Assembly (NCBI RefSeq): GCF_014698235.1
Contig: NZ_JACJSP010000020.1
Coordinates: 1 to 64,000 of the forward strand
Reading direction: 5' to 3'
DNA: 64,000 bases
From: Limnothrix sp. FACHB-406
GTDB taxonomy: Bacteria; Cyanobacteriota; Cyanobacteriia; CACIAM-69d
A program made the position numbers and the translations under genes. Positions within the stretch are counted from its first letter, which is position 1, and every line of letters starts with the position of its first letter. The notes under the pieces are model-generated. The model was not told the DNA's origin, ran no database searches, and saw only the letters and a program-made list of their open reading frames with translations. Positions 512 through 49,702 of this stretch are shown one piece after another.

Positions 512-1561
512 ATGACCAATTCCCAGGCAATTGCAGCCAATTCAGAACCCATTCGACGATTAGCGACGGGCAAGGCAGAATCGCCAGCCCGGCCGTTTGA
601 TCCCGGATCGTTTCTAGTTTTGGTGGTTGATGATGTCAGCCAAAATGTGCGCCTGTCGATCGAAATGCTAGATCAGGCGGGCTATGAAACCACATTTGCC
701 ATGACGGGAGCCGAAGCGTTGATGAGGGTGCGATCGGCCCAACCGGATTTGATTTTGCTGGATTTGATGATGCCGGGAATGAGCGGTTTGCAACTGTGCG
801 ATCGCCTGAAAGAAGATCCGATTCTGCGGGATATTCCCGTGTTGTTTGTCACGGCCAGCAACGAAGAAACCCACATGCTCGAAGCCTTCCAGCTTGGCGC
901 TGTGGACTACATCACCAAGCCCTTTCGATCGGCGGAACTCCTGGCCCGGGTGCGGGTGCATTTGGAACTCAAGCAAGCACGAGATCGCCTCAGTCAGGCC
1001 CTGAATGCCCTGCAACGAACCCACGCCCAACTGCAAAGCGCCTACACCGAATTGGGCCGCTTGGCCACCACCGACCCCCTGACCGGTTTAGCCAATCGTC
1101 GGCATTGGATGACCCTGGCCAAAAAGGAATTTCAGCGCAGTTGTCGCTACCAACATCCCCTTTCGGTGTTGATGTTGGATTTGGATCACTTCAAGGCCGT
1201 GAACGATACCTATGGCCATGCCGTGGGCGATTTGGCCTTGGCCACGGCCACCCAAGCCGCCAGCAGCATTCTGCGAACTCAGGATTGTCTGGGGCGCTAT
1301 GGGGGTGAGGAATTTGTGATGTTGTTGCCGGAGACCGATGCGGCGGCCGCGGCGATCGTGGCGGAACGGATTCGCAAGGCGATCGCCGATCCGACTATCA
1401 CCAGTTTGCCCAGCGCCCCGGGCTTAACCCTCACGGTCAGCATTGGCGGCACAAGTTGCCAGTCCACTGACACCTCGATCGAGGCGGCCTTGAACCGGGC
1501 CGATCGGGCCCTCTACCAAGCCAAAAACCGGGGCCGCAATCGAGTGATGATGGTGTTGTAG
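512..1561 (+). CDS. PleD-like response regulator diguanylate cyclase (REC-GGDEF)
   Basis: Cytosolic two-domain signalling protein of about 349 residues. The N-terminal receiver has the acidic pair in VVDD, the phospho-acceptor Asp in LLDLMMPG and the conserved Lys in YITKPF. A coiled linker leads to a GGDEF domain with the signature GGEEF, so it should make cyclic di-GMP from two GTP when the receiver is phosphorylated. An RTQD motif lies five residues before GGEEF, which is an intact inhibitory I-site for product feedback. The frame is open further upstream to an ATG at 437, but the extra 25 residues are not receiver-like, so I prefer the ATG at 512. No histidine kinase is adjacent, so the partner kinase is unknown. 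Confidence 0.9.
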   Translation: MTNSQAIAANSEPIRRLATGKAESPARPFDPGSFLVLVVDDVSQNVRLSIEMLDQAGYETTFAMTGAEALMRVRSAQPDLILLDLMMPGMSGLQLCDRLKEDPILRDIPVLFVTASNEETHMLEAFQLGAVDYITKPFRSAELLARVRVHLELKQARDRLSQALNALQRTHAQLQSAYTELGRLATTDPLTGLANRRHWMTLAKKEFQRSCRYQHPLSVLMLDLDHFKAVNDTYGHAVGDLALATATQAASSILRTQDCLGRYGGEEFVMLLPETDAAAAAIVAERIRKAIADPTITSLPSAPGLTLTVSIGGTSCQSTDTSIEAALNRADRALYQAKNRGRNRVMMVL

Positions 1562-1628
1562 CGGCCCGATTGTTTACGGTTGATTAACCTTCGGCAAGGG
1601 CCCACTGCTGGCCGAGGTGCGATAAACT

Positions 1629-1657
1629 GTTACGAAATGTAAAACTCAAAACGTAAC
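1629..1657. promoter_or_regulatory. inverted repeat upstream of the hli gene
   Basis: GTTACG (1629-1634) and CGTAAC (1652-1657) are inverted around an A-rich spacer just 16 bases before the hli start. On the minus strand the block reads GTTACGTT...TTTACATT, like two half-sites of the HLR1 element bound by RpaB in front of cyanobacterial high-light genes, but the spacing is 6 rather than 2 bases. RpaB control is therefore only an inference. Confidence 0.4.
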
Positions 1658-1673
1658 AATTCAGGAACAAACC

Positions 1674-1844
1674 ATGACTCAACCACAACCGACCACCACC
1701 CCCAACCTCGAAGAACCCAAATTTGGCTTCAATGACTATGCTGAGCGCCTGAATGGCCGCGCCGCCATGGTGGGTTTCCTGCTGGCTTTGGCGATCGAGG
1801 CGGTGACGGGTCAAGGGCTGTTGGCTTGGTTGGGCCTGCTGTAG
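1674..1844 (+). CDS. hli: High-light-inducible one-helix chlorophyll-binding protein (Hlip/SCP)
   Basis: A 56-residue protein. The centre carries the chlorophyll a/b-binding motif as ERLNGRAAMVGF, with the Glu and Arg that form the helix salt bridge and coordinate chlorophyll, followed by one membrane helix (LLALAIEAVTGQGLLAWLG). Hlips sit in the thylakoid membrane beside photosystem II assembly factors and chlorophyll synthase and quench excess excitation under stress. Length and layout match the family. Its start follows an inverted repeat that may be a light-stress operator. It stands alone, with no gene close enough on either side to share an operon. Confidence 0.93.
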   Translation: MTQPQPTTTPNLEEPKFGFNDYAERLNGRAAMVGFLLALAIEAVTGQGLLAWLGLL

Positions 1845-2223
1845 GGGCCTGCTGTTGTCCGTTGCTTGGCAACCTGCTGCAACTGGTTGAGCTTGTTGAG
1901 CGGGATTTGCCAAGCCTCATCCTTTGCGAAATGCTTTGTGAAATTAAGGGCGCAGCCCCTGCCCGATCGCTCGGTTCAAGAGGCGGGTGGGTGTGGCTGT
2001 GTCCCTTCCGTGGGCTGCGCATGAGTCGATTCCACAACCGCAGACTCCACAGCCGCAAATGTGGAAGGTTGTTGAAGGTCTTTTTTGAAGGTCTATTGAT
2101 AGCAGCAGAAAAAATTTCTAGCAGCAGAAAGGTTTATACAATCAGAATTAGGGGCGACATGGCTAGGAATTAGCCATCGTTTGGGGATCACCCTTGGGAT
2201 CAAAAGCGCTGAGGACTAAACCG
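1845..2223. other. intergenic region between hli and a membrane-protein gene
   Basis: About 380 bases without a supported gene. An 11-base direct repeat TAGCAGCAGAA occurs twice near 2098-2132, and TATACAAT just after the second copy is a plausible -10 element for the next gene. The short frames seen here lack ribosome sites and family features. Confidence 0.4.
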
Positions 2224-2592
2224 ATGGGTAAGCGTTGGCCGCGGCTGTTGCAGCAACGATATCGACGAGAGCCGATCGCCGCCTTCGTGCTAACCATGGG
2301 CCTGGTGCAGGTGACGATCGGGGGAGCGGATAGCGATGCGGGTTTGGCCGCTTTGGGGCTAATCTTTTTGGGCACGGCCGCCGCTCTCTATTGGCTGAAA
2401 TATTCCGCGCGTGTGATTGACGCGGCCCGATCGCCCCGCATGACCTACCGCAGTTCCTCCGCCAGTCGCTTGCCCGTTTTGCCCGCCGCTCCCCGGCTAA
2501 CCTCGGTTTACGGAGACCCGGTTTACACAGATCGATCGCGATCACCCCTGCCGCCCTTGCGCCTCCGCGATCGCCCCAATTCTGCCGACTAG
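2224..2592 (+). CDS. Small membrane protein of unknown function
   Basis: A 122-residue protein. Residues about 15-60 form two hydrophobic helices (AAFVLTMGLVQVTIG and LAALGLIFLGTAAALYWL). The remainder is a basic, Ser/Pro/Arg-rich cytosolic tail. The ATG at 2224 is preceded by GAGGA eight bases upstream, which decides the start over an in-frame TTG at 2194. I do not recognise the family. Arg/Asp-rich stretches in the tail coincide with CGATCG repeats, so part of its composition is driven by HIP1-like sites. Confidence 0.7.
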   Translation: MGKRWPRLLQQRYRREPIAAFVLTMGLVQVTIGGADSDAGLAALGLIFLGTAAALYWLKYSARVIDAARSPRMTYRSSSASRLPVLPAAPRLTSVYGDPVYTDRSRSPLPPLRLRDRPNSAD

Positions 2593-2684
2593 CCCTTGTC
2601 GCCAGCCTCCGCGATCCCCCAGCCCTCTTGCAAGGGCGAATCCAGAACTCTGAGCGAATCATCGTCCCGATCGAGCCGCATTGC

Positions 2685-3593
2685 ATGAGCGATCTTTGCA
2701 CCATCAGCCGTCGTGTCCAGTTTTCCGCAAGCTACCGTTACTGGTTGCCGGAACTGACGGAGGCGGAAAATCATCGGCGGTTCGGGATCGCCGCTCGATC
2801 GCCCGGCAGCACCTTCACGCTTTGGGTGCAAGTCCAGGGGCCGATCGATCCCTTTGGCATGGTGGCCAACCTATCCACCACCATCAAACGCGCCCTGCAA
2901 CGGGAAGTGCTGGAACCCTTGCACGGAGCCAACCTCAACCAAATTTGGCCAGAATTTGCCAACACCCTGCCCACCAGCGAGTGGGTGGCCCAGGTGCTGT
3001 GGCAGCGTTTGAGCCAATGTTGGCAGCGGCAGGGCTTGCAACTGCGGCAAGTGCAACTGTCGCCCGATCCCGGTTTAGTTGTGGAATATCGAGGGCAAGC
3101 TATGGAAGCTCATCTAACGGTTCATACCCACTTCAGCGCCGCCCATCGTTTGGCTCTGCCAACCCTGACTTTGGCTCAAAATAGCGAAATTTATGGCAAA
3201 TGTTCCCGCCCCAGTGGCCATGGCCACAACTATCAATTGTGGGTGACGGTGCGCGGTCAAATTGACCCTAGAACAGGGATGGTTGTTGAACTCAACCGGC
3301 TCCACGATCTCATTGAAATGCAAGTGGTGGAGCAGCTTGATCACACCTTTTTGAATCAGGATATTGCCTACTTTCAAGACATTGTGCCCACGGCGGAAAA
3401 TATTGCCGTTTATATTCGCGATCAACTGCTAGAGCCATTGCGAGAATTGGGAGTGCAGTTGGTCAAAATTCGGCTGGATGAAACCGAAAATAATTCCTGT
3501 GAAGTGTATGTGCAAACGGAGGCTCCGTGGGTCGATCGCCCCGTTACCAGCGCGATCGACCAAGGAAAAACGGCGGGCGTGGGTGCAAACTAG
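2685..3593 (+). CDS. Tandem-domain 6-pyruvoyl-tetrahydropterin synthase family protein
   Basis: About 302 residues holding two PTPS domains. The C-terminal domain (residues about 145-285) is complete: FSAAHR supplies the first zinc His, KCSRPSGHGHNY supplies the catalytic Cys and the other two zinc His, and QLDHTFLN and the final ETENNSCEV complete the active site. The family converts dihydroneopterin triphosphate to 6-pyruvoyl-tetrahydropterin (biopterin-type pterins) or, as QueD, to 6-carboxy-tetrahydropterin. The exact product cannot be told here, though the Cys...HGHNY spacing looks like the biopterin-type enzyme. The N-terminal domain aligns with the second but has lost every metal and catalytic residue (FSASYR; RSPGSTF). 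I chose the ATG at 2685 over a TTG at 2628. Confidence 0.88.
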   Translation: MSDLCTISRRVQFSASYRYWLPELTEAENHRRFGIAARSPGSTFTLWVQVQGPIDPFGMVANLSTTIKRALQREVLEPLHGANLNQIWPEFANTLPTSEWVAQVLWQRLSQCWQRQGLQLRQVQLSPDPGLVVEYRGQAMEAHLTVHTHFSAAHRLALPTLTLAQNSEIYGKCSRPSGHGHNYQLWVTVRGQIDPRTGMVVELNRLHDLIEMQVVEQLDHTFLNQDIAYFQDIVPTAENIAVYIRDQLLEPLRELGVQLVKIRLDETENNSCEVYVQTEAPWVDRPVTSAIDQGKTAGVGAN

Positions 3594-48593: not shown

Positions 48594-48805
48594 GGCCAAC
48601 GCGCCACCCTTTACCGCTCGTTTTTTCCAGGATAGGCCGCCAACTCCAGGCCTGGATTAGCCCTCTCCCAGTTGACCAGAGGCAATCAACGGCAGCTCCT
48701 AGCCATCTCCATTAATCTTCCTGAATTACCCACTGATTCCCATGATTCGGGCCCGGTAATTGGGTTACCATCGAAGACCCGCGCTTGCATTGGGTCCGCT
48801 CTGCC

Positions 48806-49642
48806 ATGTATCGTCCCAATCCAGAAAAAAAGCCGCTACGTAGAGCGCTGTTACTGCAACGCCAGGTTATGCCGCAAAACAAATGGCACAACCTCAGCAC
48901 GGCCCTGCGCGATCGGATCCAGTCTCTCCCAGAGTGGCAAACGGCACAGGTGATTTTTGCCTATGTGAGCCATCGTTTGGAGCCGGATATTTTGCCCTTG
49001 GCGCAAACGGAGTTGGGACGCAACAAAATTTGGGTGTTGCCCCGTTGCCAAGGGGAATTGCTGATTTGGCATCGCTGGCAACCGGGTGAACCGCTGGAAC
49101 CGGGGGCCTATGGGGTTCAGGAACCCGCTAGCGATGCGCCCGTGGTGGAACCAACGGCGGCGGATTTAGTTTTGGCCCCCTGCGTTGGGGCCGATCGCCT
49201 GGGCTATCGGCTAGGCTACGGGGGAGGGTACTACGATCGACTGTTGGCGGAGGTGCGCTCCAATACCCACACGATCGGCGTATGTTTCGACTTTGCCCTA
49301 TTGGACGCGCTACCCACGGATCCTTGGGATCGGCAATTTGAAGCCTTTTGCACCGAAAGCCAGGTGATTCACCCCCAATCCCACGGCCCCACCCAAATTC
49401 GGATCACGATCAAACTTTTTGCCGTCTATCAAGAAACATTCGGCAAATCAGAGCTAATTTGGGAATTGCCCGCTGGTATCACGGCCGGTGAAGTTTGTGA
49501 TCTGATGATCCAAAAACATCCCAACCTGGAACATTGGCGAAACATGACCCGCTTCGGCATTAACTTTCAGTTTGTGCCCGATAGTACCCTGCTGCGGGAT
49601 GGGGATGAACTGGTTTTAATTCCACCGGTCAGCGGCGGTTAA
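48806..49642 (+). CDS. 5-formyltetrahydrofolate cyclo-ligase fused to MoaD
   Basis: 278 residues with two unrelated domains in one frame. Residues about 5-190 are 5-formyl-THF cyclo-ligase (MTHFS): KPLRRALLLQRQ at the start, then GADRLGYRLGYGGGYYDRLL, the ATP/folate loop, and a closing DPWDRQFEAFCTESQ. Residues about 197-278 are a MoaD sulfur carrier (ITIKLFAVYQETFGKSEL, then DGDELVLIPPVSGG) with the free Gly-Gly C-terminus that is adenylylated by MoeB and thiolated for molybdopterin synthase. No stop, start codon with a ribosome site or frameshift lies between. MoaE is not adjacent. I chose the ATG at 48806, not the TTG at 48785. The join could be tested by mass or RNA evidence. Confidence 0.9.
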   Translation: MYRPNPEKKPLRRALLLQRQVMPQNKWHNLSTALRDRIQSLPEWQTAQVIFAYVSHRLEPDILPLAQTELGRNKIWVLPRCQGELLIWHRWQPGEPLEPGAYGVQEPASDAPVVEPTAADLVLAPCVGADRLGYRLGYGGGYYDRLLAEVRSNTHTIGVCFDFALLDALPTDPWDRQFEAFCTESQVIHPQSHGPTQIRITIKLFAVYQETFGKSELIWELPAGITAGEVCDLMIQKHPNLEHWRNMTRFGINFQFVPDSTLLRDGDELVLIPPVSGG

Positions 49643-49671: not shown

Positions 49672-49702
49672 GCGCCTGACTCAGTCATGCTGGGTCAGGC
49701 GC
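49672..49702. terminator. Bidirectional inverted repeat between convergent genes
   Basis: GCGCCTGAC (49672-49680) and GTCAGGCGC (49694-49702) are perfect inverses in the 106-base gap between the cyclo-ligase/MoaD gene and the convergent MBL-fold gene. There is no T-run, so it is a stable hairpin of terminator position rather than a classical terminator. Confidence 0.6.

Follow-up and report, generated by a model that had tools for sequence, protein, structure and literature searches.

A 5-formyltetrahydrofolate cyclo-ligase and a MoaD sulfur carrier joined in one protein of Limnothrix

In the genome of Limnothrix sp. FACHB-406, a single open reading frame carries both 5-formyltetrahydrofolate cyclo-ligase (5-formyl-THF cyclo-ligase, MTHFS) and the sulfur carrier MoaD, the small subunit of molybdopterin (MPT) synthase. 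This raises the question of whether the two are really one protein and, if so, whether their union couples folate one-carbon metabolism with molybdenum cofactor (Moco) synthesis or is simply tolerated because both domains work alone, two options between which an earlier note on this DNA did not choose. The window analysed here is the whole stretch of 64,000 nucleotides that contains the frame.

The gene (48806..49642, plus strand) runs from ATG to TAA and encodes 278 amino acids plus stop. Its N-terminal MTHFS domain (residues 8-184; 48827..49357, plus strand), delimited by profile matches, conservation and fold, matches the whole of PF01812 (Pfam; E=1.1e-38, profile positions 1-186 of 186) and the whole of the bacterial MTHFS model TIGR02727 (MTHFS_bact, NCBIfam; 168 bits against an equivalog cut-off of 84.9, positions 1-182 of 182), with the motif GYRLGYGGGYYDR intact. 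After a linker of 15 residues (185-199; 49358..49402, plus strand), the MoaD domain (residues 200-278; 49403..49639, plus strand), delimited by profiles, alignment and fold, matches the whole of PF02597 (Pfam; E=1.2e-14, residues 202-278, positions 1-76 of 76). The moaD model TIGR01682 (NCBIfam) is likewise matched end to end, with 47.9 bits, which lies below its equivalog cut-off of 66.15, a model threshold and not a biochemical feature; the fused half is therefore called MoaD by orthology and context and not by TIGR01682. Of the positions conserved in at least 95% of the free cyanobacterial proteins, 36 of 39 are kept in the MTHFS half, including GYGGGYYDR, and 25 of 26 in the MoaD half. The AlphaFold model (mean pLDDT 88.6, pTM 0.67) contains two confident domains, for which Foldseek retrieves MTHFS structures (1sou and 2jcb, E 1e-14 to 1e-16) and MoaD structures (6jbz and 5mpo, E about 1e-6), respectively. 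Confidence drops at the junction (67 in block 191-200) and is also low in the C-terminal tail, as would be expected of a flexible MoaD end. A beta-grasp domain with Gly-Gly at the very end of the chain is found by sequence, by PF02597 and by fold. MTHFS and MoaD are joined in one protein, which is a real fusion, and what the earlier note read from the frame is right: end-to-end Pfam matches place a complete MTHFS and a complete MoaD ending in Gly-Gly in one frame of 278 residues, and the chain ends in PPVSGG after MTHFS and linker, so that a folate enzyme carries MoaD with its C-terminus free.

The fusion is not a product of assembly. It is intact in three assemblies, that of the strain itself (G000), a second one that is 99% identical (G001), and a more distant one with 72% protein identity (G002), and because all three carry the same unbroken fusion, assembly error or frameshift is excluded. 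No stop or frameshift was found in any of them between 49380 and 49420, where a break would, according to the earlier note, have refuted the fusion. The gene differs between G000 and G001 at 27 of 837 nucleotides, nearly all silent, with two amino acid changes, and the gene of G002 agrees in length and start and again has a linker of 15 residues. Local alignment and comparison of the three genomes also reveal a conserved non-coding block 24-49 nt before the start codon (48757..48782, plus strand), of whose 26 bases 24 are shared by G002, despite its different flanking genes. This block probably serves the fusion gene as promoter or as the region where transcription starts, with TACCAT (48766-48771) as a possible -10 box; a consensus promoter scan found nothing upstream of the gene, and a candidate upstream NtcA box (GTAN8TAC) was rejected because its spacing is 7 and its GTA is not conserved in G002. 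On the other side, 29 nt past the stop codon, lies a perfect 9-bp hairpin, GCGCCTGAC...GTCAGGCGC (49672..49702, plus strand), whose pairing is kept in G001 through base changes. It has a terminator-like stem without a T-run and was not reported by a terminator scan that requires one.

Whether the fused domain matters to the cell depends on what else could act as MoaD. In the genome, rated 100% complete, three genes pass the ThiS cut-off: the fusion and two genes of the ThiS/MoaD fold, one adjoining threonine synthase (thrC) and one adjoining thiE, both neighbours being named from their translations. The latter gene is ThiS by its context. The former, located downstream of the threonine synthase gene (2122-3174, minus strand) at 1498-1773 (minus strand) of locus L002 on contig G000:C17, encodes a 91-residue protein ending in VAGG, and a homologue stands beside thrC in each of the family's six genomes. 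Both were considered as a second MoaD and ruled out by these positions, and the search for a separate moaD in this genome, which the earlier note had called for, revealed none, these two being the only other ThiS-fold genes. The same set of ThiS/MoaD-fold genes recurs across the family, with MoaD free in G003, G004 and G005; thiS was not seen in G005, an assembly 93% complete. The genome also contains moaA, a free MoaE of 164 residues, an E1 protein whose C-terminus is rhodanese-like, and a molybdopterin oxidoreductase resembling NarB (narB), the rhodanese part and NarB being named from translation. Since these genes are present and no other MoaD is, the fused domain, the only MoaD candidate of an organism with an apparent need for one, must presumably supply it. 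A second E1-like protein of the ThiF fold (390 residues; 997-2169, minus strand, of locus L122 on contig G000:C2) has no obvious rhodanese domain or carrier partner. MTHFS itself is present in a single copy; an additional, broken match below threshold occurs in G004.

The distribution of the fusion is narrow. It is found in all three members of the Limnothrix-type genus, which form only two separate lineages, G000/G001 and G002. In the search of other cyanobacteria for the same domain order that the earlier note had proposed, it was seen in this genus only: in 390 genomes of the class, no genome outside the genus passed a whole-protein test at E=1e-60, a test that could miss fusions with a linker of other length, which would be split into two weaker pieces. 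The MoaD half has a match in 138 of 386 genomes of the phylum. Long frames in ten genomes (G135, G120, G321, G159, G166, G290, G033, G017, G026 and G048) were rejected as fusions after inspection of their translations by eye, in which the upstream parts look like chance open frames ahead of a free moaD, and a long frame in G147 gave no match to the MoaD end motif. A plasmid collection yielded a single weak partial match and no fusion, and a contig search reaching close relatives only had its match in Limnothrix sp. CACIAM 69d alone.

The sister genus offers a clue to the origin of the fusion. In G003, MTHFS and moaD follow each other in this order on one strand, separated by 164 nt, and in G005 they lie on the same strand with a gap of 4 nt from the first possible start, whereas G004, which belongs to a third genus of the family, has them unlinked, on different contigs. 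Outside the family, no linkage of MTHFS and moaD was seen in the cyanobacteria searched. The MTHFS tree groups the family, plus one outsider, at 95 SH-aLRT; in the MoaD tree the fusion genus is not placed with the sister genus, the domain being too short to resolve this. Adjacency in the sister genus, set against the unlinked genes of the third, makes a joining of neighbours in the ancestor of the Limnothrix-type genus the most likely origin of the fusion, and the adjacent pair of the sister genus is a plausible precursor, a direction of change suggested by this gene order. The flanks are an amine oxidase and a metallo-beta-lactamase-fold gene in G000, an ABC transporter and a CheA-like kinase in G002, and a TPR-like protein and an HrcA-like repressor around the pair in G003 and G005 (those of G002, G003 and G005 named from translations). 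Since they differ in all three settings, linkage in the common ancestor of the two genera is something that we infer rather than see.

We consider it probable, at roughly 0.7, that the product is a bifunctional protein derived from joined neighbour genes, in which the tethered MoaD is the only MoaD of the cell and no coupling of the two functions is needed. The N-terminal half would act as an ordinary MTHFS, clearing 5-formyl-THF in an ATP-dependent reaction to 5,10-methenyl-THF. The free C-terminal Gly-Gly of the other half would be adenylated and thiocarboxylated by the E1-rhodanese protein while MoaD is still tethered to MTHFS, and the charged domain would then insert into the stand-alone MoaE for the production of molybdopterin, mainly for the nitrate reductase NarB. 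As MTHFS would sit at the N-terminus of MoaD, away from the reactive end, and Gly-Gly is free, no cleavage would be needed; both activities and the absence of processing in the cell are predicted from sequence. The fusion would persist because the halves could be separated only by gaining a new start site, and neither of them suffers from the union.

An alternative is that the fusion is a precursor that merely makes two proteins, with MoaD freed by a protease or by an internal translation start. There are precedents in MoaX of M. tuberculosis and MoaD-MoaE of Deinococcus radiodurans, in which, as in the Limnothrix protein, MoaD lies within a longer polypeptide. In MoaX-type fusions the N-terminal MoaD becomes active only once it is cut off after Gly-Gly (PMC4326299), and the D. 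radiodurans fusion is cleaved as well (PMC8832034). However, that cleavage is required when MoaD is N-terminal, joined there to its own partner, whereas in the Limnothrix fusion MoaD is C-terminal, its partner is a folate enzyme and its Gly-Gly is already free; the MoaX-type arrangement, an N-terminal MoaD with internal Gly-Gly, was looked for in the fusion sequence and is absent, Gly-Gly being the chain end. The linker can be read in both directions. Between G000 and G002, pN/pS is 0.21 for MTHFS, 0.23 for MoaD and about 0.95 for the linker, which is 27% identical; the two halves are thus under purifying selection, and the linker drifts neutrally. Such low constraint might be shown by an exposed cleavage site, but no conserved site is found in the linker. 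As for internal initiation, GTG187 of G000, preceded by GAAAG, is a possible weak start, as is the ATT at residue 198, the only one common to both species. However, GTG187 is CTT in G002 and its context is not conserved either, and the linker contains no Met and no ATG, GTG or TTG shared by G000 and G002, which argues against free MoaD by internal initiation. We therefore regard processing as unlikely.

Another observation bears on whether the MoaD half is still a MoaD. Over the same core region, G000 and G002 are 96% identical in MoaE and 73% in MoaD (49403-49639 in the window), a divergence ratio of 6.8, which would be about 3.4 with full-length MoaE (92%). The ratio exceeds that of all 46 within-genus pairs with free MoaD (0.5 to 4.7), pairs that are not independent. 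In agreement, pN/pS of MoaD is 0.23 in the fusion against 0.09 unfused in the sister genus, whereas that of MTHFS is alike in the two (0.21 and 0.24). At silent sites the fusion has diverged about as much as most other genes (pS 0.62-0.73; thrC, 0.42), which indicates that the fusion was not replaced by a distant copy; horizontal replacement of the gene in one lineage as the cause of its high protein divergence finds no support on this ground, pS matching that of moaE, the thrC-linked gene, thiS and thiE. Faster divergence of MoaD at similar silent divergence would point to looser constraint or adaptation after fusion, a lead and not a result, as it stems from one contrast of about 21 substitutions with silent sites near saturation. 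A half that changes faster than free MoaD could have an altered function, and it could be decaying or now serve as a structural cap or a modifier of proteins, in which case Moco would be made via a different ThiS-fold protein, for example the thrC-linked one. This we hold to be highly improbable: as described above, all but one of the 26 strongly conserved MoaD positions remain, as does the PPVSGG end, pN/pS is well below 1, and the thrC-linked gene is also present in relatives with free MoaD.

These data also bear on the first option of the earlier note, a physical coupling of folate one-carbon metabolism to Moco synthesis through the fusion, in which, for instance, MTHFS would sense folate and thereby control the charging of MoaD or the assembly of MPT synthase, or the two activities would be held at a fixed ratio. 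Both pathways produce reduced pterins from GTP, the MTHFS-moaD pair is adjacent in the sister genus too, and the fusion has been retained over near-saturated synonymous divergence (pS about 0.7). However, the linkage was seen in one family only, the chemistries of MTHFS and MoaD have no common substrate or intermediate, the linker is not conserved, and the literature search found no paper joining the two proteins. Coupling, for which no positive evidence emerged here, thus seems distinctly unlikely, and it is very unlikely that the tethered MoaD is tuned by the activity or ligand state of the folate enzyme, so that nitrate assimilation would track one-carbon or photorespiratory status, with the raised MoaD divergence as adaptation to that role. 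If true, coupling would link one-carbon metabolism to nitrate assimilation; nothing here requires it. The second option, under which the fusion is tolerated since each domain functions by itself, has the better support, given the adjacent genes in the sister genus, the neutral linker and the lack of linkage in the other cyanobacteria searched.

How the fusion relates to known proteins is best seen half by half. The MTHFS half shares the complete domain and the nucleotide/folate motif with stand-alone bacterial MTHFS (YgfA, YqgN; TIGR02727) and is about 40-51% identical to most other cyanobacterial MTHFS, from which the protein differs in being extended by linker and MoaD. The MoaD half resembles stand-alone cyanobacterial MoaD in equal length, PPVSGG end and identity (mostly 50-67%; 55-67% for the best of its nearest relatives), and differs from it in its place C-terminal to MTHFS and its faster divergence. 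Beta-grasp sulfur carriers joined to enzymes are known from MoaD-MoeB(R) of Thaumarchaeota and others and from ThiS-sulfite reductase of some actinobacteria, the latter with the carrier at the C-terminus, as in Limnothrix; their partners, unlike MTHFS, take part in the same relay or in sulfur metabolism. For prokaryotic ubiquitin-like domains, one survey records fusions of MoaD/ThiS with MoaE, ThiG, sulfite reductase and aldehyde ferredoxin oxidoreductase, with no mention of folate (PMC1779556), and a survey of archaeal fusions lists MoaD-MoaE and MoaD-MoeB(R) (PMC11237513). A literature search by unabbreviated names returned no description of MoaD and 5-formyl-THF cyclo-ligase as a single protein. 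Within the literature searched, the pairing is new, while fusions of sulfur carriers to enzymes as such are already known.

Since MoaD has to receive its charge from an E1 and then push its tail into MoaE, a permanent N-terminal load of 200 residues would be a natural test of how much bulk the sulfur relay tolerates. With the two genes joined, adjacent and unlinked across three sister genera, this family offers a clear case for the study of gene fusion.
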